Shown piece after piece: positions 7,406-61,019 of a DNA stretch of 61,019 nucleotides; position 1 is the first letter of the stretch; each line of letters starts with the position of its first letter. Source of the stretch: a virus. The position numbers were made by a program, and so were the translations under genes. The DNA is taken from IMG/VR virus record IMGVR_UViG_3300031576_000044, positions 1 to 61,019 of that record; one strand, given 5' to 3'. The notes under the pieces were generated by a model. The model was not told where the DNA came from. It did not search any database and saw only the letters and a list, made by a program, of their open reading frames with translations.

Positions 7406-7447
7406 TTGGAGGAGCTGGCGCTAGACTATTCAAGAGGGGACTTACAG

Positions 7448-8704
7448 TTGCCGGACGAACCGAAACTAGCCGAAGAACACAACGACGTGTTCGCGCGGGA
7501 TGCAAGGCGCGACGGTCCGCTCGGCAGCGTGCAGGACCTGAAGCCAGACCCCGAGAACGCCCGTAAGCACGGCAAGCGCAACGTGGGCATGATGGTCGAG
7601 GCGCTCCAGGAGGTCGGGGCGGGCCGCAGCATCGTCATCGACGAGGACGGGGTCATCCTCGCCGGCAACGGCATCGTCCAGGCGGCGGCGGAGGCCGGCA
7701 TCGAGCGCGTCCAGGTGGTCGAGGCCGACGGCAAGACCATCATCGCCGTGCGGCGGCGCGACCTGACGCCGGAGCAGAAGCGGCGGCTCGCCCTCTACGA
7801 CAACCGGACCGCGGAGCTGGCGAACTGGGACGCCGAGGTGCTCCAAGCGCTGCACCAGGACGGCGCCCTTTCGGGACTGTGGACCGACGAGGAGCTGGGC
7901 GGTCTGCTCGACATCGAGCCCGACGGGGGTCCCGACGACCCCGGCCCCGAACTCGAGCGGGCCGAGGAGCTGCGCGCGAAGTGGGGAGTGGTTGCCGGCC
8001 AGGTGTGGCAGCTCGGCGAGCACCGGCTCGCCTGCGGCGACTGCCGCGACACGGCCACCGTCGATGCCGCCACCGCTGGCCGGAAGGCGTGCGCCATGTG
8101 GACGGACCCGCCGTACGGCGTCGAGTACCAGGGCGGCACGGGCCTGCGGATCGCGAACGACAACCGGGCCGAGCTGCCCGACCTGCTGCGGGGTGCCTTC
8201 GCCACCGCCGATGGGGCGCTCGAGAGCGGCTCGCCCATCTACGTCGCCCATCCGGCCGGGAGCCTGTCGCTCGTCTTCGGCCAGGCATTCCTCGACGTCG
8301 GCTGGCACTTCCACGAGACGCTGGTGTGGGTCAAGGACGCGCTGGTCCTCGGCCACTCCGACTACCACTACATGCACGAGCCCATCCTCTACGGCTGGAA
8401 GGGCACGATGCGGCGCTGGTACGCGGGCAGGAGCGAGACCTCGGTCTTCCAGATCCCGCGTCCCAGGAAGAGCGAGGACCACCCGACCATGAAGCCGGTC
8501 GAGCTGGTCGAGGCGCACCTCAGGAACAGCACCAAGGCCGGCGACCTCGTGTGGGAACCGTTCGGCGGGAGCGGGACGACCCTGGTTGCCTGCGAGCGGC
8601 TCCGGCGGCGCTCTGCCTCGAGCGAAATCGACCCGAGGTACGTCGCCGTGGCCCTCGAGCGCTGGGCCGTGATGACGGGCAAGGAGCCATCGCGTGTCGG
8701 TTGA
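7448..8704 (+). CDS. ParB-domain DNA methyltransferase (N6-adenine/N4-cytosine, beta-like), 418 aa
   Basis: Residues 20-110 form a ParB-like domain (LKPDPENARKHGKRN, DEDGVILAGNG, TPEQKRRLALYDNRTAE). The C-terminal part has the catalytic motif DPPYG (near 219) and the AdoMet motif FGGSGTT (near 371), in the order of beta-class methyltransferases. This fusion is widespread in phages and probably protects phage DNA from host restriction or marks it for packaging. TTG 7448 is preferred because GAGGGGA sits 7 bases upstream; a TTG at 7406 directly after the previous stop lacks a good site. It lies just before the small terminase. Confidence 0.85.
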   Translation: MPDEPKLAEEHNDVFARDARRDGPLGSVQDLKPDPENARKHGKRNVGMMVEALQEVGAGRSIVIDEDGVILAGNGIVQAAAEAGIERVQVVEADGKTIIAVRRRDLTPEQKRRLALYDNRTAELANWDAEVLQALHQDGALSGLWTDEELGGLLDIEPDGGPDDPGPELERAEELRAKWGVVAGQVWQLGEHRLACGDCRDTATVDAATAGRKACAMWTDPPYGVEYQGGTGLRIANDNRAELPDLLRGAFATADGALESGSPIYVAHPAGSLSLVFGQAFLDVGWHFHETLVWVKDALVLGHSDYHYMHEPILYGWKGTMRRWYAGRSETSVFQIPRPRKSEDHPTMKPVELVEAHLRNSTKAGDLVWEPFGGSGTTLVACERLRRRSASSEIDPRYVAVALERWAVMTGKEPSRVG

Positions 8705-40586: not shown

Positions 40587-41120
40587 ATGCTGTCGAAGCG
40601 CCCGCGCTCCTGGACCGCCGGCGAGCTCGCCGACCAGGTCGAGGTCCGCGTCGCCGGCGAACGCCGGAAGGTGCCCCGCCGTCTGCTCGACCTGATGGCC
40701 GGGCCACGGCCGCCAGTGGACTGCGAGTCCAACGGCTGCGGGCCGAAGCTCTCGGCGGTGCCGTGCCTGGGGCGCCTCGTCTCCTGGCTCGTGCCCGACG
40801 TGCTTCACGGCTGGCCGATCTGGATCGGATGCCACTGGCACGACTACCACTACGGGCCACACCGCCCGCTCGGAGGAACCTGGGCCTCGCGGCGGCAGGC
40901 CGACTTCCTGCTCGCCCGCAACATCCTGACCGTGATCGCTGAGGCCGGCGTCTGCAGCTGGCCGCGCGCCGCTACGGTGGCCGGGCTCTACTGGCTGGGC
41001 GTCCGCCTCGGCGGGTGGTGCGCGTTCAGCTACGGACCCGGAGAGGCCCCGCGCTCCGCCCTCGAGCGCGTCCGGGAGCGGACCGGGCTTTTCCGTCGCG
41101 CAGTGGGGAGCGTGACCTGA
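40587..41120 (+). CDS. DUF1353-like hypothetical protein, 177 aa
   Basis: ATG 40587 follows the lipoprotein by 4 bases. GWPIWIGCHWHDYHYG and SRRQADFLLARNIL resemble the His/Asp-rich core of DUF1353 phage proteins (HDYLY...R-ADR). The C-terminus is hydrophobic. It overlaps the caspase-like gene by 1 base (TGATG). Role not established. Confidence 0.5.
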   Translation: MLSKRPRSWTAGELADQVEVRVAGERRKVPRRLLDLMAGPRPPVDCESNGCGPKLSAVPCLGRLVSWLVPDVLHGWPIWIGCHWHDYHYGPHRPLGGTWASRRQADFLLARNILTVIAEAGVCSWPRAATVAGLYWLGVRLGGWCAFSYGPGEAPRSALERVRERTGLFRRAVGSVT

Positions 41121-42025
41121 TGGGCTGGTTCCGCAACTTCCTGGCGTGGCTGCGGGACGATGACGTCCCCGCGCCGGCACTCGCCTCGTCGCCGTCGCCG
41201 GTGACCGCTGAAGGTCGCCGCCTCACCATCGGCGTCGGCGTCAACGAGTACCTCGGCTCGCCTGAGAACGCGCTCCGCGGCTGCGTCAACGACTCGGTCA
41301 ACGTCCGCCACGAGCTCGAGCAGCGGGGATGGGAGGCACCGGCCGAGCTGCTCTTCGACCACGAGGCGACGAAGCGCCGCACCCTCGAGGTCATTGGCAA
41401 TACCTGCGCGAGCCTGCGCACCGGCGACACGCTGCTCGTCCAGTGGTCGAGCCACGGGACACGTATCCATGATCCGGCGGAGGCCGACGGGCTCCTCGAG
41501 GCGATTTGCCCGACCGACGCCATGGCCGACTGGCCACGGAACCTGGTGACGGTCCTGGACCTCGCCCGGATCTTGCGCGAGCAGGTGGCTCCCGGGGCGC
41601 TGGTGCTCCTCCTGGTCGACGCCTGCCACAGCGGGGTGCGGGGCGCGGATGCGGGCAACTACGCCCGGGCGCTGAACCCGCTCTACCGGCGGGCGCGCGT
41701 CCTCCTGGGGCCCGTGGCGGCCGGCGGGACACGGGTCCGGGGACTCAGCGGCGCTGTCACCGGGCAGGTGGCGACCCCCTGGTCGAGGACGGTGCTCCTG
41801 TCCGGCTGCCGCTCCGACCAGGTCTCGCTCGACACGTGCATCGCCGGCGAGTACCAGGGCGCGATGACCTGGGCGTTCCTGCGCGCGCTGCGCTGGACCC
41901 GGTCCGAGCGGACGCTCCGGGAGCTCCACGTCCACATGCGGCAGATCCTGACGGCGCAGGGGTACGCCCAGGAGCCGCAGCTCCTCGGGTCGCCGCCGCA
42001 GCTCGAGCGCCGGGTGTTCGGATGA
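41120..42025 (+). CDS. Caspase-like (peptidase C14/metacaspase-type) protease, 301 aa
   Basis: Overlaps the previous gene (TGATG). The p20-like fold is clear: RLTIGVGVNEY (35-44), ALRGCVNDSVNVRHEL (51-66), the His-Gly dyad in QWSSHGT (His112), and the catalytic DACHSG (Cys169). These are the motifs of metacaspases, which typically cleave after Arg or Lys. It lacks a signal peptide and extra domains; the last 120 residues complete the fold (LLSGCRSDQVSLD, AFLRAL). A phage lysis-module metacaspase is rarely described. Possible roles include host killing, anti-defence cleavage or virion processing; none is shown. Confidence 0.85.
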   Translation: MGWFRNFLAWLRDDDVPAPALASSPSPVTAEGRRLTIGVGVNEYLGSPENALRGCVNDSVNVRHELEQRGWEAPAELLFDHEATKRRTLEVIGNTCASLRTGDTLLVQWSSHGTRIHDPAEADGLLEAICPTDAMADWPRNLVTVLDLARILREQVAPGALVLLLVDACHSGVRGADAGNYARALNPLYRRARVLLGPVAAGGTRVRGLSGAVTGQVATPWSRTVLLSGCRSDQVSLDTCIAGEYQGAMTWAFLRALRWTRSERTLRELHVHMRQILTAQGYAQEPQLLGSPPQLERRVFG

Positions 42026-44383: not shown

Positions 44384-44746
44384 TCACTGCGGCACCACGT
44401 CGTAGTAGCAAGCTGGCGACGTGGCCTCGACCGCCCAGACCTCGAGCCGGTATGTGGTCTCGGCGCCAGGCAGATCGTTGTACACGTAGTCCTTGGTGAT
44501 CGAGCAGGTGCCGTCGCGGTAGACCTTGGCCACGCTCTGCCAGGCGGATCCGTTCCAGCGCCTGAGCTGGTAGGATTCCACCGCGGCGGTCTCGTCGTCG
44601 GTTGACCAGGTCGCGCGAATCCCGTCCGCCTCGATGGTGCCGACGAAGCTCGCGGAGACGCCGGCGCAAGTGTCCGTGACGCCGCAGGGGTTCGCAAGCG
44701 CAGGGACGAGCAGGACCGCAAGGATTGCCGAAAGGGTTTGCCTCAT
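44384..44746 (-). CDS. Secreted fibronectin type III-like protein, 120 aa
   Basis: ATG 44746 overlaps the regulator's stop (TGATG). MRQTLSAILAVLLVPALA is a signal peptide. The rest (IEADGIRATWSTDDETAAVE, YQLRRWNG, LPGAETTYRLEVWAVE) fits a single fibronectin type III domain with Cys at both ends (PCGVTDTC, PACYY). Co-transcribed with the regulator gene. Confidence 0.65.
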   Translation of the reverse strand: MRQTLSAILAVLLVPALANPCGVTDTCAGVSASFVGTIEADGIRATWSTDDETAAVESYQLRRWNGSAWQSVAKVYRDGTCSITKDYVYNDLPGAETTYRLEVWAVEATSPACYYDVVPQ

Positions 44747-45642
44747 CAGGTCTCCTTCTTCGCCCAGGCCGGGTCTGGCCGCCACATCAGCATGAACGCG
44801 TACCCGGCGAGCGGCTTCCTGATCGTAACCCGAGCCTGGCTTCCAGGTGGAGCATCGAGGTGCCAGCTCTCGCAGGAGCCTCGATCGGCCAGATCCTCCT
44901 CGACGATCTCCGCAGCACCAGGAAATGCGGCACGGAACGTCCACTCCGGGGAATGGTAGCCCACCGGGAAGCTCATCGAGATCGTGAAATCCGTCAAGTG
45001 CTGACGCGGGATATAGCTGAACCGCTGGAACGCGGGTTCCGAGGCTGGATCTTGTCGCACCAGGAGGCCGGGAACCGCGCCGCTCACGAGACACCCGACT
45101 CCCGCGGCCGGCCAGGTCCCTCCCTTCGGCTCGATCTCGTGCCAGCGCCATCCGCCGGGACCGTCCGCTGTATGATGCTCGAAGAGGATCGCTGGGTTGT
45201 CGGAGACGACGGCATAGGAGGCGATGGTTGGAATCACCGCGCACTGCGCTGCAAGGATGCGCTCTCGGAATTCGATCTTGGCCTTGTCCCGCAACGGTCT
45301 GGCAGCGGCCCAGTGCCGAGTCAGCAGGGCGGCGCCGCTTGGTTCAACGGTCAGGAAGACGCTTAGGGAGGCGGCCTCCACGGTCAGCTGCTCGCGCTGC
45401 AGGAGCCAAGCCGACTCGAAGTGGTCGTGCCAGTCGACGCTCGCGGAGTGGGCCGGGGGCCCTTCCGCGATCCGGGCCAGTTCGGCCACCACCTCGACGT
45501 CGAGCTCGTGCGGCGGCTTGCGGAGCAGGCGCGAGACGTAGGAGGCGGACTTGCCGAGGCGCCGGGCGACCTCGCGGACCCCGAGAGCGCGGGCCAGCAC
45601 TACGACGTCGGCTGGCTCGATATGGGGAGCGGCGGTGTCCAC
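44746..45642 (-). CDS. HTH regulator with large C-terminal domain (candidate repressor), 298 aa
   Basis: GTG 45642 is 7 bases after the -10 TAGAGT, so it is likely leaderless. Residues 10-55 hold an HTH (VLARALGVREVARRLGKSASYVSRLLRKPP). The C-terminal 220 residues have no recognised family but contain repeated aromatic and acidic blocks (WHDHFESAWLLQREQL, GYHSPEWTFRAAFPGA), perhaps a sensor or dimer domain. It faces the integrase/excisionase side across a region of operator-like repeats, so it is the best candidate for the immunity repressor, but no peptidase motif for RecA-induced cleavage is seen. Confidence 0.65.
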   Translation of the reverse strand: MDTAAPHIEPADVVVLARALGVREVARRLGKSASYVSRLLRKPPHELDVEVVAELARIAEGPPAHSASVDWHDHFESAWLLQREQLTVEAASLSVFLTVEPSGAALLTRHWAAARPLRDKAKIEFRERILAAQCAVIPTIASYAVVSDNPAILFEHHTADGPGGWRWHEIEPKGGTWPAAGVGCLVSGAVPGLLVRQDPASEPAFQRFSYIPRQHLTDFTISMSFPVGYHSPEWTFRAAFPGAAEIVEEDLADRGSCESWHLDAPPGSQARVTIRKPLAGYAFMLMWRPDPAWAKKET

Positions 45643-45649
45643 GGGCCCT

Positions 45650-45678
45650 ACTCTAATCCAGGCGGCGAGAACGGTCAA
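45650..45678 (-). promoter_or_regulatory. Promoter of the HTH regulator (TTGACC-17-TAGAGT)
   Basis: On the minus strand TTGACC (45678-45673), a 17-bp spacer and TAGAGT (45655-45650), then 7 bases to the GTG. This is a good sigma-70 match and implies a leaderless message. Confidence 0.6.
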
Positions 45679-45746
45679 GGTCAGCGGCAGGCAACAGGTA
45701 CGGCACAGGCAGGCAACGACCGCTAGGTAGCGGCTGGAACGCCTCG

Positions 45747-45797
45747 GTGTTGCCGGTGTTACCGAGCGCTGGCATTTCCGGCAACGCCGGCAACACC
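45747..45797. repeat. Inverted operator-like repeat built from GTGTTGCCG units
   Basis: GTGTTGCCG and GTGTTACCG in tandem at 45747-45764 face CGGCAACGC and CGGCAACAC at 45779-45796, giving 18-bp arms that match at 16 positions with a 14-bp spacer. They lie between the two divergent promoters. Further copies stand at 47602-47610, 47735-47743, 47749-47757, 47791-47799 and 47824-47832. This pattern suggests the binding site of one phage regulator. Confidence 0.6.
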
Positions 45798-45835
45798 TGA
45801 CGGGGCAGACCGCGGCACAAAGCAACGCGTGAACG

Positions 45836-45864
45836 TTGACGGCGGTTTGACACCGTGGTACCTT
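45836..45864 (+). promoter_or_regulatory. Promoter of the RHH gene (TTGACG-17-TACCTT)
   Basis: TTGACG at 45836-45841, a 17-bp spacer and TACCTT at 45859-45864 with an upstream TGG (extended -10). The ATG follows after 7 bases, so the message would be leaderless. Confidence 0.5.
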
Positions 45865-45871
45865 TGTGGCC

Positions 45872-46066
45872 ATGGTCGACCAGGCCAAACGCGCGAAGCG
45901 GAGCAAGAAGGCGCTGCGCGACCGGTGGCTAAAGTTCCGGGCGACCGACGACGAGATCGAGCTCGTCAGACGCGGGGCGGCGGCGGAAGACCGGCGCCTC
46001 AGCGACTTCATGCGGGTTGCTGCGAAGGAACGGGCTCGCCAAGCCATCGAAGCCACGCGGAACTAG
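45872..46066 (+). CDS. Ribbon-helix-helix DNA-binding protein, 64 aa
   Basis: Starts MVDQAKRAKRSKKALRDRW. FRATDDEIELVRRGAAAE and SDFMRVAAKERAR form a ribbon-helix-helix of the MobC/DUF1778 kind. ATG 45872 is chosen because the -10 element ends 7 bases upstream. It could be the Cro-like or toxin-antitoxin-type partner opposing the minus-strand regulator. Confidence 0.65.
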   Translation: MVDQAKRAKRSKKALRDRWLKFRATDDEIELVRRGAAAEDRRLSDFMRVAAKERARQAIEATRN

Positions 46067-46119
46067 GCCCCGCCAGCCCGGCCCACAAGCACGTCGAGCG
46101 ATCACCAGATCCTCGCGAC

Positions 46120-46148
46120 TTGACTTGACCCTACGGCGTGGGTACAAT
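46120..46148 (+). promoter_or_regulatory. Strong sigma-70-type promoter for the excisionase gene
   Basis: TTGACT at 46120-46125, exactly 17 bp, then TACAAT at 46143-46148. The start codon at 46158 begins 9 bases later, so the leader would be 0-3 bases. Confidence 0.7.
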
Positions 46149-46157
46149 GGGGTCGCA

Positions 46158-46358
46158 ATGGACGGGACGCTCTGGAAGGTTTCCGACGTCGCGGCGTACC
46201 TTGCGGTCTCGGTCGCCTGGGTCTACGAGCGCGTCGAGCGCGGCGACATCCCGCACATGAAGATCGGCGCGCACGTCCGCTTCAAGCGCCAGGAGATCGA
46301 GGGCTGGGCGGAAGAGCACCGCCGGCCGCAGCCCGCCGCATCCGGGGGCTCGCGATGA
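46158..46358 (+). CDS. xis: Excisionase / AlpA-like HTH protein, 66 aa
   Basis: MDGTLWKVSDVAAYLAVSVAWVYERVERGDIPHMKIGAHVRF is written here only by parts: WKVSDVAAYLAVS, WVYERVERGDIPH, RFKRQEIEGW. These are the HTH_17/excisionase core, where a short winged helix bends DNA. Located just before the integrase, as for phage directionality factors. Strong promoter directly upstream. The gene symbol reflects role by position. Confidence 0.7.
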   Translation: MDGTLWKVSDVAAYLAVSVAWVYERVERGDIPHMKIGAHVRFKRQEIEGWAEEHRRPQPAASGGSR

Positions 46359-46381
46359 CTCTAGCTTCCTCGGCGCTGTGG

Positions 46382-46387
46382 TACCCT
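46382..46387 (+). promoter_or_regulatory. Extended -10 TGGTACCCT before the integrase
   Basis: TACCCT at 46382-46387 is preceded by TGG, and GTG 46395 follows after 7 bases. The same TGGTACCYT and 7-base spacing precedes the RHH gene. No good -35 is seen. Confidence 0.4.
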
Positions 46388-46394
46388 GCCCCGC

Positions 46395-47504
46395 GTGGTG
46401 TTCTACAAGCGGGGCAGGACCTGGTACGCGGACCTCGGTCGGCGCAACGGCCGACGCCTGGTCGTCTCGCTGCGAACCACCGAGCGGGAGAAGGCGGAGA
46501 GCCTCTACCTCGAGCTGGCGCGCCAGCGGCGGATCCGCGGCCTCGCCCTCGACGAAGCAATCCTCACCGAGAGGCAGCAGCCCCGGGACCCCGTCACCGT
46601 GGCCGCGGCGATCGCCGACTTCCTGTCCTACTCGCAGAAGCACCACTCTCCGACCACGATCGAGCGCAACCAGCGGATCAGCCGGTCGCACCTGGTCCCG
46701 CAGATGGGAACGCTGGTGCTCGGAGGCATCAGCCTCGAGGCGATCGAGCACTACAAGGCGAAGCGGCTCCACGATGGAGCGAAGCCGGAGACGGTCAACC
46801 GGGAGCTGCAGGTCCTGCGCAAGGCCCTCAACCACCAGGTGGCGCTCGGCAAGATGCCGTCGAACCCGCTCCAGCGGTTCAAGCTCCTGCCGGTCGTCCG
46901 CTCCGAGGTCCCGGTGCACCTGTTGCCGGAGCAATACCGAGCTCTCGTCGAGCTCGCCGAGGAGCCGTTGCGCACCATGATCGTCGTGGCCGTCCAGACC
47001 GGGTTGCGCAAGACGGAGCTGTTCCAGCTGACCTGGACACGGGTCGATCTCCAGCGCCGCTTCATCTTGGTCGACGCCAACGACGGGGAATGGCGGCCGA
47101 AGGGGCGGAAGGCTCGACCGTTACCGCTCAACGAGGAGGCCTACGCCGCGCTCAAGGAGCACCAGGCGCGGACCCGGCTTCGGTCTCGGTACGTCTTCTG
47201 CGGCCGCACAGGCCGCCCGCTTACCACGCTCAAGACCTCCTGGACCACGCTCCGGCGAAAGACCGGCGTGAAGGTGCGCTGGCATGACCTGCGCCACACG
47301 TTCTGCTCGTGGGCGATCCAGGACGGGGTCCCGGTCCAGGCCGTCGCGGAGCTGCTCGGCCATGCCGATCTCCAGATGGTCAAGCGCTACACCCACTTGC
47401 GGCCGGAGCACCTGCGGGCAGCGGTCGACACCGTTGCGCGGGCCAGCAAGCGGGTACATAATGGCGACAGTCGTGAGGCGTCGCCGAAGCCGCCAACCTC
47501 CTGA
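46395..47504 (+). CDS. int: Tyrosine recombinase integrase, 369 aa
   Basis: N-terminal arm-binding segment (VFYKRGRTWYADLGRR), then a SAM-like core-binding domain (VAAAIADFLSYSQKHHSP), then the catalytic domain with TGLRKTE (Arg near 205), HDLRHTF (His and Arg near 298 and 301), and LGHADLQMVKRYTHL (His near 324, Tyr near 333). All catalytic residues are present, so it should be active. It lies next to a 3' tRNA fragment that serves as attP. It makes the phage temperate. Confidence 0.9.
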   Translation: MVFYKRGRTWYADLGRRNGRRLVVSLRTTEREKAESLYLELARQRRIRGLALDEAILTERQQPRDPVTVAAAIADFLSYSQKHHSPTTIERNQRISRSHLVPQMGTLVLGGISLEAIEHYKAKRLHDGAKPETVNRELQVLRKALNHQVALGKMPSNPLQRFKLLPVVRSEVPVHLLPEQYRALVELAEEPLRTMIVVAVQTGLRKTELFQLTWTRVDLQRRFILVDANDGEWRPKGRKARPLPLNEEAYAALKEHQARTRLRSRYVFCGRTGRPLTTLKTSWTTLRRKTGVKVRWHDLRHTFCSWAIQDGVPVQAVAELLGHADLQMVKRYTHLRPEHLRAAVDTVARASKRVHNGDSREASPKPPTS

Positions 47505-47519
47505 AGCCCCATCGCACCG

Positions 47520-47564
47520 TGGTAGCAGGGGCGGGACTCGAACCCGCGACCCCGGCATTATGAG
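47520..47564 (-). other. attP: attP core: 3' part of a CAU-anticodon tRNA
   Basis: Read on the minus strand: anticodon loop CTCATAA, stem TGCCG, variable GGGTC, T-arm GCGGGTTCGAGTCCCGC, acceptor CCCTGCT, discriminator A and CCA. This is the 3' half of a tRNA with anticodon CAU (Met or Ile2 type). The 5' half is absent, so it is not a tRNA gene but the sequence shared with a host tRNA, placed 15 bases after the integrase. Integration would rebuild the host tRNA. Confidence 0.75.
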
Positions 47565-47848
47565 TGCGGTGGGCAGTGAGTTGCCCACTTGCCGTTCCTG
47601 AGTGTTGCCGCCGAAAACCGCGTCCATACGGTCAGTTCCGCTCAGGGTGAATCCTGCTCATTTCGCGCCGGTTCCAGGCGCTCCTGGCGACAGATCGGGG
47701 ACAGAATCCCGACAGGTGCCTGTGCCGGCCTGGTCGGCAACACGGGACGGGCAACACCGCGTCGCGCCGGCGCCAGACCTCGTGAACACCCGGCAACACT
47801 TTCACGTCGGTCCGGGGCAGCAGCGGCAACAGCTGGAGGGGGCCACCG
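47565..47848. promoter_or_regulatory. Early control region with clustered GTGTTGCCG-like sites
   Basis: Non-coding gap between attP and the early operon. It contains GTGTTGCCG at 47602-47610 and, in opposite orientation, CGGCAACAC at 47735-47743 and 47791-47799, GGGCAACAC at 47749-47757 and CGGCAACAG at 47824-47832. A weak TTGCCG-16-TACGGT pair (47605-47632) could be a promoter. The cluster probably controls the early operon through the phage regulator. Confidence 0.5.
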
Positions 47849-48433
47849 ATGATGCCCCTCCTGCTTGCGCTCTCCCTCGCGGGCGCTGACCATCTGCCAA
47901 AGGCGCTCGCCTACAACCGGACGCTGCCGGCCTACGTCCGCCTGGTCGAGATCCTCGGCACCGAGGAGGTCATCTGGGCGAGCCGGCGCGAATCCGAGCG
48001 CCGGCGCCGCGAGACGCCCTCCTTGGTCGCCTACGTCGACGGGCCCGTGGTGCGGGTCATCCGCCGGCGCTGGCCGCTCGAGGCGGTGCGTGAGAGGGAG
48101 CCGAAGCCCACCGACTTCTCGAGCGCGACCTGGGGCGGACTCGCCGGCATCCTTCGGCACGAGCTCGGGCACCAGCTCTACTACCTGGTGCTCTCTGAGG
48201 CGGAGCGCGCCCGGGTCGACCTCGCGGTCGCCCCTGTCACGACCTACGCAAGGACCTCGAAGCACGAGGCCTTCGCCGAGGCGGTCGCCCTGCTCACCCA
48301 CCCGCGCTACCGGCCCGACCGGTTCGCGCCCGAGGCGCGGCGCTACCTGGACGAGGTCGAGGCTGTGCTGGCGGGGAGAGGCATCCTGCCAGCGCGGCCG
48401 CTGCTCCTTGCGGAGGACCTGGCATGGCGCTGA
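47849..48433 (+). CDS. Zinc metalloprotease-like protein (HExxH), 194 aa
   Basis: ATG 47849 or 47852, with GGAGGG upstream. A short hydrophobic start (MPLLLALSLAG) may be a signal. The core holds GILRHELGHQLYY, an HExxH zinc-binding motif, and a downstream EAFAEAVALLTHP that could supply the third ligand. It is the first early gene after the operator cluster, a place where ImmA-like proteases that cleave repressors sit in other elements; that link is speculative. Confidence 0.65.
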   Translation: MMPLLLALSLAGADHLPKALAYNRTLPAYVRLVEILGTEEVIWASRRESERRRRETPSLVAYVDGPVVRVIRRRWPLEAVREREPKPTDFSSATWGGLAGILRHELGHQLYYLVLSEAERARVDLAVAPVTTYARTSKHEAFAEAVALLTHPRYRPDRFAPEARRYLDEVEAVLAGRGILPARPLLLAEDLAWR

Positions 48434-57314: not shown

Positions 57315-58051
57315 GCTGGTACCCCAAGCGCGAGAAGCCCTGCCAGGACTGCGGCAAGCCCTTTGTCGGCGGGCCGCCCGCGCGCTATGGGCCGTGCTGC
57401 CGCTGGAAGCACCGCGGCAGGGTGAAGAAGTACTCGTGGACGCCGGAGCGCGACCAGCTGTTGCGCGACCGGTATGACAGCCGCATCCGAAACCGAGCGG
57501 GGGAGATCGCCGTCGAGCTCGGCTGGCCAGGCTGGGCGGTGAAGCGCCGCGCCCAAGAGCTCGGGCTCAGCGTGTCCTGGCCGGCGGACCGGCGCGATTG
57601 GACTCAGGAGGAAGAGGGGTTCCTGCTCGAGCACGCCGGCAGCCGTCACGTCAACTGGATGGCGAAGAAGCTCAAGCGCTCCCTCACGTCGGTCGTGGTC
57701 AAGCTCAAGCGCATGCAGATCTCGCGGCGCTGGCGCGAGGGGTACACCCTGCAGGAGCTCCAGCTGTGCTTCGGCACCGACCATCACGTCATCGACCGCT
57801 GGATCCGAGAGGGGAAGCTCGTCGGGCGCCGGCGAGGAACCGAGCGCAACGGCACGGGCGGGCGTGACGGTGGGCCCGCCGACGCCTGGGTGTTCACCGA
57901 CGAGGACCTGGTCACGTTCATCCGGAACCACCCGATGGCCTTCGAGCTGCGCAAGGTCGACCAGCTGTGGTTCATGGACTTGCTGCTCGCTGGCGGGCTC
58001 ATCCAGAGAGCGCTCGAGGCCGCGCGCGAGGGAGAGGCGCCCGCGGCCTGA
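57311..58051 (+). CDS. Early DNA-binding regulator: zinc ribbon plus SANT/Myb-like and HTH repeats, 246 aa
   Basis: GTG overlaps the previous stop. PCQDCGKPFVGG...GPCCRWK is a zinc ribbon. Two SANT/Myb-like repeats follow: SWTPERDQLLRDRYDS...IAVELGWPGWAVKRRA (45-80) and DWTQEEEGFLLEHAGS...MAKKLKRSLTSVVVKLKR (97-140). A MerR-like helix-turn-helix (LQELQLCFGTDHHVIDRWIREGKL) ends the core. Myb-like repeats in a phage regulator are uncommon. Likely controls late or early genes; direct evidence is lacking. Confidence 0.65.
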   Translation: MSWYPKREKPCQDCGKPFVGGPPARYGPCCRWKHRGRVKKYSWTPERDQLLRDRYDSRIRNRAGEIAVELGWPGWAVKRRAQELGLSVSWPADRRDWTQEEEGFLLEHAGSRHVNWMAKKLKRSLTSVVVKLKRMQISRRWREGYTLQELQLCFGTDHHVIDRWIREGKLVGRRRGTERNGTGGRDGGPADAWVFTDEDLVTFIRNHPMAFELRKVDQLWFMDLLLAGGLIQRALEAAREGEAPAA

Positions 58052-58076
58052 GCGCCGCGGCGACAGGAGGACGAAG

Positions 58077-60842
58077 ATGGCGAAGAGGAAGAGCAGTGAG
58101 ACGGCGGAGCAGCATGGCGGCGGGACGGCGGCGGCGATCGCGGAGGCGCCCCCGCCTGGCGCACAGCAGCTCATCCCTCTCGAAGCCATCCGCATCGGCG
58201 GCGCGAACCCGCGCCGGCACTTCGACGAGGCGAAGATGGCCGAGCTGACCGAGAGCGTCCGCCGGCACGGCGTCCTGCAGCCGGTGCTCGTCCGGCACTG
58301 GCCCGACCCGGGGAGCGACCGCTACGAGCTCGTCGCCGGCGAGCGCCGCTACCGAGCCGCGAGCAAGGCCGGCCTCTCCGAGATCCCGACGCTCATCCGG
58401 GAGCTCTCCGACGCCCAGGCTCTCGAGCTTCAGGTGATCGAGAACCTCCAGCGCGAAGACCTGCACCCGCTCGAGGAGGCTGAGGGCTACCGTCAGCTCC
58501 ACGAGGTCCACGGCTACGCCGTCGAGGACCTGGCCGCCAAGGTCGGCAAGTCCCGGATGTACATCTACGGCCGGCTCAAGCTCTGCGCCCTCTCGAAGCC
58601 GGCCAAGGAAGCCTTCCTCGAAGGGCAGTTCAGCGCCTCGATCGCGCTCCTGCTCACTCGACTACAGGAGCCGCAGCAGGCCGACGCGCTCAAGGAGCTG
58701 AAGCGCTGGGGCGAGGACGGTCCGTCGTATCGCGACTTCGCTGACCATGTGCAGAGCAAGTACATGCTCCGTCTCGACGGCGTGCCCTGGAAGCTCGATG
58801 ATGCCGACCTAGTCCCGAAGGCCGGGCCGTGCACGACCTGTCCCAAGCGCACCGGCAACCAGCCGGAGCTCTTCTCGGACGTCCGGAGTAAAGACGTCTG
58901 TACGGACCCGGGCTGCTATCGAGACAAGCAGGCCGCGACCTGGATGCAGGTGCAGGCCGAGGCGGAGTCCGAAGGCCTCGAGGTCCTCGGCGAGAAGGAG
59001 GTGAAGAAGGCCTTCCCGTACGGCGACCGTCCGGGCCACAACAGCGGCTTCGTCGCCATCACCGAACGGTGCGACGAGTCCCCGAAGGGCGAGAGCTGGC
59101 AGAAGACACTTGGCAAGGCAGCGCCGCCCGCGGTCGTGGCGTGGACGCCTGGCGGCGCCGTGGTCAAGCTCTACCGCGAGAAGGAGGCGCTCGACGCGGC
59201 TCGCGGCAAGGGCTACAAGTGGGCGCAGGCGCACCGTTCGGATGCCGGCTCGGGATCGAGCGACGCGGCCGACCGCCGGCGCATGGCGGAGCAGCGGTTG
59301 AAGGGTGCGGCGCGTCGTGAGGCGATCGGCCGGCTAGTCGCCGCTGCGGAGAAGAGGGAGCCGCCTGCCTCGATCTGGCGCGAGATCGCCGGCGCCATCA
59401 TGGGCGCGGTCTGGGCGCAAGTCTCGCGCGAGATCGCCCAGCGTCGCGGCATCGAGGCAAAGGGCGGAGGCTTCGGCGCCCAAGAAGCGATCAAGAAGCT
59501 CCTGGCGAAGATGACACCTGGGCAGGCCCGAGGCCTCGCCCTCGAGGTCCTGGTTGTGCGCGGCCTGCTGGACTTCGGGAATCGGCACGATGGCGCGCGG
59601 CAGCTCCTCCGCGCGTTCCACATCGACCTCAAGGCAATCGAGAACCAGCTCAAGGTCCAGCAGAGGGCGAAGGCCAAGGAGCCCCGCAAGACTCCCTCTC
59701 AACGCCAGCGCGAGGCCGGGGAAGCCGCAAAGGAGGCAGCCGACCAGGCCGATCTCGCCAAGCTGCCCGACAAGATCCCGGCGCTGGTCGAGGACTACCG
59801 CCGTACGCTGCAGGCCCGGCACAACTTCATGCTCAAGGGCAAGGTCAAGCAGGCGCAGGAGGCGACCCGGCGCCTCGACCTGCTCCAGGCGAAGGCCAAC
59901 GGCGGCAGGAGCTTTGGCTCCGGCGTCGAGACATCGCCAGCGGAGACGCTGCGCAGGCAGACCGCGGCCCCCATCGGGCAGGAGCCGCTCTGGGGCCAGC
60001 TGGGCGTCTTCCGTGTCGAGGTCGACGGCGTCCCCTACTTGGTCGAGCACGACACGTCGATGCACTTGGCCCTCCACGCCGAGCAGGCCTCCATGCGCTG
60101 CATCTCCGAGACCGGGTTTCATAGCTTCTTCCCAGCCACGCCCGGGTCCGACGAGGAGGTGCGCGCTTCCGTCGCCGACTACGTGGTGGAGCTCATCCGT
60201 GAAGAGGTCGCCACGGTCCCGAACCGCTCGGGCGCGCAGCGCGTGCCGCGCCCGGCGAGCAAGCCCCTGCCCTACCCGGAGCGGGTCTACCGCCTGCCGA
60301 AGAAGGGCGAGGGGAGGAAGCTCATCGAGCTTGCGGTGAAGGGCGGCCGGTCCGACGAGGTGCCGACGGCGCCGGCCAAGCACCCGGCCCGTTGCGCGCT
60401 GCGCCCCGCCGTCGGCGCGACCAAGGGCAACCACGCGCCTTGCACGCTCGAGCCCGGCCACAAGGCCAAGCACAAGAACCAGACCGAGAGCTGGACGAGG
60501 TGCGAGAAGCCGGCCGGCCTCCCGGGTGTTCCGCCGAGGGCGGTTCGTTGCCGCGCCTGCAAGGCGAAGCCCGGCTTCCCATGCACCGGCCACACCGGCG
60601 GCCGCAACTCGAAGTTCCACAAGGTCCGCGAGCAGGACGCGACGCGGGTCAGACAGGCCACGCCCGGGATCTGCTGCCGCTGCGGGTGCGTCGAGGCAGC
60701 CGCCTGCCCCGGCGGCTGCGCCTGGGTCAATGCCGACCGGACGGTCTGCAGTTCCTGCGCGACGCCCGAGGAGCTGCGGGCGGCACAGACGATGGGCGGT
60801 GGCGTCCGGCGCGTCGGCGCACTGTCGGACGAGGAGAAGTAG
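58077..60842 (+). CDS. Very large ParB/RepB-like fusion protein, 921 aa
   Basis: CAGGAGG lies upstream of ATG 58077. Residues 35-130 form the ParB/Spo0J domain (NPRRHFDEAKMAELTESVRR, ELVAGERRYRAASKAG, QVIENLQREDLHPLEEA), then a ParB HTH (AVEDLAAKVGKSRMYIYGRL). A Cys cluster follows (CTTCPKRTGN, CTDPGCYRDKQ), as in phage/plasmid ParB-like proteins. About 400-620 is helical and Lys/Arg-rich. The last 170 residues carry more zinc-like clusters (CRACKAKPGFPC, CCRCGCVEAACPGGC). No ParA is present. It may bind CTP and DNA; partition is doubtful. Its 3' end is repeated at 1-62. Confidence 0.75.
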   Translation: MAKRKSSETAEQHGGGTAAAIAEAPPPGAQQLIPLEAIRIGGANPRRHFDEAKMAELTESVRRHGVLQPVLVRHWPDPGSDRYELVAGERRYRAASKAGLSEIPTLIRELSDAQALELQVIENLQREDLHPLEEAEGYRQLHEVHGYAVEDLAAKVGKSRMYIYGRLKLCALSKPAKEAFLEGQFSASIALLLTRLQEPQQADALKELKRWGEDGPSYRDFADHVQSKYMLRLDGVPWKLDDADLVPKAGPCTTCPKRTGNQPELFSDVRSKDVCTDPGCYRDKQAATWMQVQAEAESEGLEVLGEKEVKKAFPYGDRPGHNSGFVAITERCDESPKGESWQKTLGKAAPPAVVAWTPGGAVVKLYREKEALDAARGKGYKWAQAHRSDAGSGSSDAADRRRMAEQRLKGAARREAIGRLVAAAEKREPPASIWREIAGAIMGAVWAQVSREIAQRRGIEAKGGGFGAQEAIKKLLAKMTPGQARGLALEVLVVRGLLDFGNRHDGARQLLRAFHIDLKAIENQLKVQQRAKAKEPRKTPSQRQREAGEAAKEAADQADLAKLPDKIPALVEDYRRTLQARHNFMLKGKVKQAQEATRRLDLLQAKANGGRSFGSGVETSPAETLRRQTAAPIGQEPLWGQLGVFRVEVDGVPYLVEHDTSMHLALHAEQASMRCISETGFHSFFPATPGSDEEVRASVADYVVELIREEVATVPNRSGAQRVPRPASKPLPYPERVYRLPKKGEGRKLIELAVKGGRSDEVPTAPAKHPARCALRPAVGATKGNHAPCTLEPGHKAKHKNQTESWTRCEKPAGLPGVPPRAVRCRACKAKPGFPCTGHTGGRNSKFHKVREQDATRVRQATPGICCRCGCVEAAACPGGCAWVNADRTVCSSCATPEELRAAQTMGGGVRRVGALSDEEK

Positions 60843-61019
60843 CGTCATGGCCAAACGCTCGTTCAGCGGCGCCCCGACTGCGCCCCGCCACCCGCGCGCG
60901 GCCGTGGGTAAGACAGAGATCGCCTGGACCGATTGGACCTGGTCGCCGATCGTCGGCTGCCGGCGGGTCAGCCCTGGGTGCGAGCACTGCTACGCGGAGA
61001 GGCTCGCGGCCACGCGCCT
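60781..61019. repeat. Terminal repeat of 1-120 joined to 1150-1268 (variant allele)
   Basis: 60781-60900 equals 1-120 without a mismatch, and 60901-61019 equals 1150-1268. The intervening 1,029 bp (121-1149) is missing. Such an overlap is what an assembler leaves when a circular or terminally redundant genome is linearised, but here the two ends differ by one clean deletion. The genome is probably 60,780 bp with the segment or about 59,751 bp without it. Confidence 0.85.
60847..61019 (+). CDS. In-frame fusion of the MAKRSF ORF start to DUF5131 (partial, variant allele)
   Basis: From ATG 60847 the frame reads 18 codons of the small MAKRSF gene, then Ala, then Val-Gly-Lys-Thr-Glu-Ile, the start of the DUF5131 protein, and continues to the window edge. 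The 1,029-bp difference is exactly 343 codons, so the indel keeps frame. In this allele the DUF5131 protein would carry a 19-residue extension, or begin internally at its GTG. The Cys motif (GCRRVSPGCEHC) is intact. Confidence 0.7.
   Translation, partial: MAKRSFSGAPTAPRHPRAAVGKTEIAWTDWTWSPIVGCRRVSPGCEHCYAERLAATR

Follow-up and report, generated by a model that had tools for sequence, protein, structure and literature searches.

Genes and promoters of the locus

The window, that is the whole stretch of 61,019 nucleotides analysed here, is a 61-kb virus record in which phage genes lie on both sides of two clusters of a short repeated word. Head and packaging genes are found from about 5.9 kb, and genes for RecT, an SMC/AAA-like protein, RusA and a ParB-like protein run rightwards from 47.8 kb. 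The region between the clusters is ordered as a leftward regulator gene, cluster 1, rightward genes for a ribbon-helix-helix (RHH) protein, an HTH_17 excisionase and a tyrosine integrase (int), a putative attP with cluster 2, and the early genes, which is the gene order of a temperate-phage switch. The genes and promoters are as follows.

44746 to 45642, minus strand: regulator gene, 298 aa, N-terminal HTH (residues about 10–60), sub-threshold HTH_38/HTH_3 matches
45650 to 45678, minus strand: predicted regulator promoter from the promoter scan, TTGACC-17-TAGAGT, apparently leaderless
45836 to 45864, plus strand: candidate RHH gene promoter, TTGACG-17-TACCTT, weak −10, picked by eye and below the promoter-scan threshold
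45872 to 46066, plus strand: RHH protein, DUF1778/TacA-like (Pfam TacA1 above cut-off, DUF1778 structures weakly)
46120 to 46148, plus strand: predicted HTH_17 gene promoter from the promoter scan, TTGACT-17-TACAAT, leaderless
46158 to 46358, plus strand: HTH_17/excisionase-family protein (Pfam HTH_17 2e-13; phrog_1840 excisionase; TIGR01764 excise)
46395 to 47504, plus strand: tyrosine integrase (Phage_integrase 3.7e-34; phrog_1; N-terminal alignment)
47849 to 48433, plus strand: first gene to the right of the putative attP, with a HELGH metallopeptidase-like motif, starting the early gene block (RecT, SMC/AAA protein and RusA next)

The integrase has complete catalytic motifs (GLRKTE/HDLRHTF/LLGHADLQ/KRYTH) and, by alignment, a short N-terminal domain of the arm-binding type, and the HTH_17 protein is a candidate recombination directionality factor. 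The AlphaFold2 model of the regulator is confident for residues ~10–60 only, and its C-terminal domain has no recognised relatives. The RHH protein is solitary, with no recognised GNAT toxin alongside. The product of 47849–48433 has a HELGH zinc-metallopeptidase-like motif and no PHROGs or Pfam match.

The promoter scan of the region returned two promoter-like sites where 0.1 were expected. For the regulator, RHH and HTH_17 genes, the predicted −10 box ends about 6–9 bp short of the start codon (45640–45655, 45859–45875 and 46143–46160), which suggests that these transcripts are leaderless; the gene at 47849 instead has a Shine-Dalgarno-like GGAGGGG.

Elsewhere in the record, 41015–42025 encodes a caspase-like protein between the tail genes and the regulator, with a weak, below-cut-off match to the NCBIfam EACC1-associated caspase. 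A 992-aa ORF at 57864–60842 has a ParB-like domain, and 7406–8704 encodes a ParB-domain DNA methyltransferase, the phage also having an integrase. Positions 1–120 are repeated exactly and directly at 60781–60900, near the other record end, followed by unrelated sequence; circular permutation may explain the repeat, or it may be an artefact of assembly.

A locally clustered word in two gaps

The word GTGTTGCCG (reverse complement CGGCAACAC) was first described in an earlier note made from the sequence alone, as four related 9-mers forming a 16/18 inverted repeat at 45747–45796 with five exact or near copies in 47602–47832. Both the coordinates and the pairing (45747–45764 with 45779–45796) were reproduced, and the five further copies are all present at the positions given, those at 47749(−) and 47824(−) reading GTGTTGCCC and CTGTTGCCG, respectively. 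Widened to 45746–45797, the repeat pairs at 17 of 19 positions. Additional GGCAAC cores at 45690 and 45712 extend cluster 1 to 45687–45797, larger than the earlier note had it, and another core at 47580 lies within a small hairpin. The sites around the two clusters are listed below.

45687 to 45718, minus strand: two extra motif copies (GGCAACA at 45690, GGCAACG at 45712), 22 bp apart, upstream of the regulator −35 box
45746 to 45797, unstranded: core of cluster 1, tandem 9-bp sites at 45747 and 45756 and an inverted tandem pair at 45779 and 45788, forming the 17/19 inverted repeat
47452 to 47469, plus strand: degenerate pair GGGTACA/GGCGACA on the int side (putative P′), 11 bp apart, at −52/−41 from the int stop
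47602 to 47832, unstranded: cluster 2, putative distal-arm motif copies at 47602(+), 47735(−), 47749(−), 47791(−) and 47824(−)

Every 6- and 7-mer of the window was given a Poisson local-clustering score relative to its own frequency and, because the word had been picked by eye, the scan maximum was set against 60 dinucleotide shuffles. GGCAAC(A) ranked first in the two-cluster score, above the maximum of all 60 shuffles, and in the one-cluster score the 7-mer GGCAACA and the 6-mer GCAACA also exceeded every shuffle. The motif does not stand out in raw k-mer counts made without correction for word frequency; it is the corrected score that singles it out. The earlier note had asked whether the motif is as frequent in coding sequence, and it is not: the exact 9-mer occurs five times in the two gaps (573 bp together) and twice in the other 60.4 kb, a density ratio of 264 (binomial p 1.5e-9), and the non-coding DNA outside the gaps contains neither the 9-mer nor the 7-mer. 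The genome is GC-rich and short two-copy repeats are common, yet with all 60 shuffles exceeded in an unbiased scan and the motif absent from other non-coding DNA, the reading of the clustering as chance or a composition artefact is refuted at the level of clustering and keeps a negligible probability. The motif is a real, non-random and locally clustered word. Dispersed sites of the stoperator type (L5/Bxb1) were considered and rejected on the same absence of exact and 7-mer copies from other non-coding DNA.

When 12 copies were aligned with their flanks, information was confined to ~8 contiguous bases, (G)(G)TGTTGCC(G), with neither a conserved dyad partner within 10 bp on either side nor a conserved flank. 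Successive copies are 22, 37, 9, 22 and 9 bp apart in cluster 1 and 24, 132, 14, 42 and 33 bp apart in cluster 2, in both orientations. Such an asymmetric ~8-bp shape fits monomeric recognition, as by the arm-binding domain of an integrase. It does not fit a CI-like operator, in which half-sites are dyad-symmetric, and the spacings do not fit the direct repeats one turn apart by which Apl/Xis/Cox sites are defined (PMC7498355). The data support the view that proteins bind the word in two regions where this temperate phage is controlled.

A tRNA-Met-like fragment as the putative attP core

The earlier note overlooked a tRNA-Met-like 3′ half beside int.

47520 to 47566, minus strand: putative attP core, comprising anticodon loop, T arm and CCA end (the 3′ half) of a tRNA-Met(CAT)-like gene

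The fragment reads CACTCATAATGCCGGGGTCGCGGGTTCGAGTCCCGCCCCTGCTACCA on the minus strand and begins 16 bp past the int stop codon. Its identity to tRNA-Met genes annotated in other phages is about 84%. The Rfam tRNA model scores 47523–47593 at 26.8 bits, just below the gathering threshold of 29, and ARAGORN found no complete tRNA at the fragment. Because Salmonella phage epsilon34 and Enterobacteria phage mEp043 have their annotated attP, a tRNA 3′ half, in this same place, the fragment is read as an intact attP core.

On this reading the tRNA-Met of the host would end in ...GGTCGCGGGTTCGAGTCCCGCCCCTGCTACCA. A search for the host through the core gave no match in 57 genomes with related integrases, in 395 further genomes of one phylum or in viral contigs, and a looser pattern matched only tRNA 3′ ends of similar type. 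Among the loci inspected, the Bradyrhizobium plasmid p186_1 carries an orphan tRNA-Met 3′ half (301–352 of the extracted locus) between an IS3 transposase gene and an LPD7-domain gene, with no complete tRNA by ARAGORN; it is possibly an attachment-site remnant.

Cluster 2 as the probable distal arm of attP

All strong copies of cluster 2 lie on the far side of the core from int, and near the core no repeat other than GGCAACA is conspicuous. On the int strand four of the five sites read GGCAACA, or GGCAACAG at 47825. The degenerate pair on the other side, inside the 3′ end of int, scores 5/7 and 6/7 and stands where mEp043 has its own pair; a pair of this kind arises at 0.03% of positions under the null for spacing 11 and at 0.15% for spacings 10–12. 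An unrestricted weight-matrix scan of the int side found no significant site there, as 14% of random windows score as well. Since the integrase has an arm-type N-terminal domain, it needs arm sites, and cluster 2, taken alone, probably represents the integrase arm sites of attP. The distal sites lie farther from the core than in mEp043, which counts against the arm reading.

Relatives of the integrase, about 26–37% identical, were screened for repeated words around the int end. In total, 18 of 143 distinct loci passed the array threshold, not all of them attP-like, and most of the 143 have no conspicuous array, so that the absence of visible arm sites is common. In mEp043 the word GGCACAA stands at −50, −39, +127 and +179. 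One locus (L046) and its kin have eight copies of ACCCACA around a tRNA-like core and none elsewhere in 11 kb, and L046 and its relative L050 repeat the 9- and 14-bp spacings seen in the window. Further arrays were found in L030 (five copies of TGACACA), L040 (GGCACC) and L055 (GGGCAC). With some exceptions, the words of these arrays are GGCACA-like when read on the int strand, as are four of the five cluster 2 sites. That they are arm sites is itself a prediction, and as such they would show what arm sites of this integrase family look like. Among the relatives examined, the full arm word occurs at attP and hardly anywhere else; the window differs by a second array at 45690–45797, and no parallel to such an array at the switch was seen among them.

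Candidate binders of cluster 1

Cluster 1 lies between the predicted promoters of the regulator and the RHH gene and overlaps the −35 and −10 boxes of neither. It is probably bound by the same protein as cluster 2, although taken by itself it could be an operator set. Two other origins were tried and rejected. As to a duplicated attP arm, a longer alignment between the clusters stands out only mildly: about 1% of random pairs do as well, and the alignment includes the motif itself. As to a transcription terminator, cluster 1 lies upstream of both predicted start sites and has no T tract.

A Cox/Apl-like factor and a repressor are serious alternatives as the binder of cluster 1. The first would be a dual-purpose protein, the HTH_17 excisionase (or the RHH protein), binding the motif at attP for excision and between the switch promoters for repression. 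Sites at attP and between switch promoters are exactly where Apl of phage 186 binds, similar to RdfS (PMC7498355, PMC11963761), an HTH_17 excisionase-family gene is encoded between the clusters, and the best-conserved sites lie on one side of the core. Against this, operators of the Apl/Xis type are direct repeats one DNA turn apart, while the spacings here are irregular and the orientations mixed, and the strong promoter of the HTH_17 gene (46120–46148) has no motif copy. A factor of this type is an unlikely binder on balance.

The earlier note likened the clusters to operator sets of temperate phages. Spelled out, the regulator at 44746–45642 or the RHH protein would control its own divergent promoters through cluster 1 and the early block through cluster 2, and adjacency to attP would be a by-product of gene order. 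Binding sites in two control regions stand; operators of the regulator or the RHH protein are not the best reading of them. Cluster 1 does separate the divergent promoters of regulator and RHH operon, the early gene block does follow cluster 2, all copies in the clusters are intergenic, and an RHH oligomer could well occupy contiguous 9-bp sites in tandem and inverted order. However, the 12 aligned sites show no dyad half-site partner at a fixed distance, cluster 1 leaves the predicted promoter boxes uncovered, the cluster 2 gap contains no sigma-70-like promoter that could be found, the isolated single sites of cluster 2 are ill-suited to RHH dimers, and cluster 2 falls in the putative distal arm of attP. 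Classical operator sets are thus improbable, although they deserve to be taken seriously.

In a further layout, cluster 1 would be a remote recombination arm, bridged by Int to the core through looping, with the int, xis and RHH genes in between. The same exact word in tandem 9-bp pairs does occur on the int side, the side with the weak near arm, but the weak near pair is present at the usual place and core-like sequence within cluster 1 is no better than chance, which leaves this layout very improbable. To our knowledge, no tyrosine integrase has an arm 1.75 kb away.

The integrase as proposed binder of both arrays

The best explanation, in which our confidence is evenly balanced, is that GTGTTGCCG is the arm-type word of the phage's own tyrosine integrase and that a second array of it is placed at the switch. 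Cluster 2 and the weaker pair inside the int 3′ end would then form the two arms of attP around the core at 47520–47566, the N-terminal domain of the integrase holding the arm sites and the catalytic domain recombining the core. Cluster 1 would repeat these sites in a second array, about 1.75 kb away in the gap that separates the regulator promoter from that of the RHH-xis-int operon, where bound integrase would probably regulate transcription and couple the level of integrase, or the integration complex, to the lysogeny switch. What the sequence shows is the motif, its clustering, an attP-like core and the layout of the family; Int as the binder and any action at cluster 1 are what we infer.

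With int pointing towards attP, an overlap of attP with the int promoter is impossible. A detached array could serve in its place: such arm sites would supply the feedback that other phages obtain from an int promoter overlapping attL. The stronger version, in which the arm-binding domain doubles as a switch regulator and the abundance or complex of Int directly controls the divergent promoters of the regulator and of RHH-xis-int, is conceivable but doubtful.

The earlier note proposed conservation in related prophages as a check, but searches of viral contigs and phages yielded no close relative, which limits what sequence alone can decide. In particular, no relatives of the regulator were seen in viral contigs or in phages, none of the RHH protein, RecT or the major capsid protein in viral contigs, and no match there to the 45747–45796 inverted repeat searched as a degenerate pattern.

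If Int does bind both clusters, one word would serve recombination and transcription in a phage whose attP overlaps no promoter. Besides int promoters that overlap attL and factors of the Cox/Apl type, phages would then have a third means of linking the lysogeny switch to the decision to integrate. For annotation, the locus is a warning that repeated words next to int in temperate phages are easily taken for repressor operators when a tRNA-derived attP core is overlooked.

Comparison with known systems

The layout is like that of mEp043 and epsilon34, in which an annotated excisionase gene (HTH_17 in mEp043) overlaps the start of int, and the tyrosine integrase gene is followed by an annotated attP, a 44–48 nt tRNA 3′ half on the minus strand 13–17 bp past int. 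The repeated word of mEp043 stands at −50/−39 and +127/+179. Their integrases are only ~27% identical to that of the window and the tRNA is different; the arm word is GGCACAA, a 7-mer with no further copy in the 13 kb examined, and no second array in a switch region was seen.

For Apl of phage 186 and Cox of P2, too, one binding word serves attP as well as the promoters of the lysogeny switch (PMC7498355). The Apl sites are direct repeats 10–11 bp apart, different from the irregular sites of the window in both orientations (PMC7498355). In cluster K mycobacteriophages (CrimD, Pixie), paired arm repeats of 11 bp or similar, direct or inverted, flank a tmRNA/tRNA core (PMC3203893), but the arm sites described are all at attP, and attP lies 5′ of int.

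Feedback of Int and the recombination directionality factor (RDF) on promoters is established (PMC2951348, PMC11963761). In KplE1 (IntS/TorI), arm sites of the integrase double as operators on its own promoter (PMC2951348). In ICEMlSymR7A (IntS/RdfS), five repeated arm-type sites lie in a 283-bp attP and the RDF also acts on its own promoter (PMC11963761); the arm word there is TGKTGGTATC, and the RdfS sites are without consensus. In both cases the operators are inside the att site, for KplE1 inside attL because the int promoter overlaps it, whereas the supposed operators of the window are detached, about 1.75 kb away.
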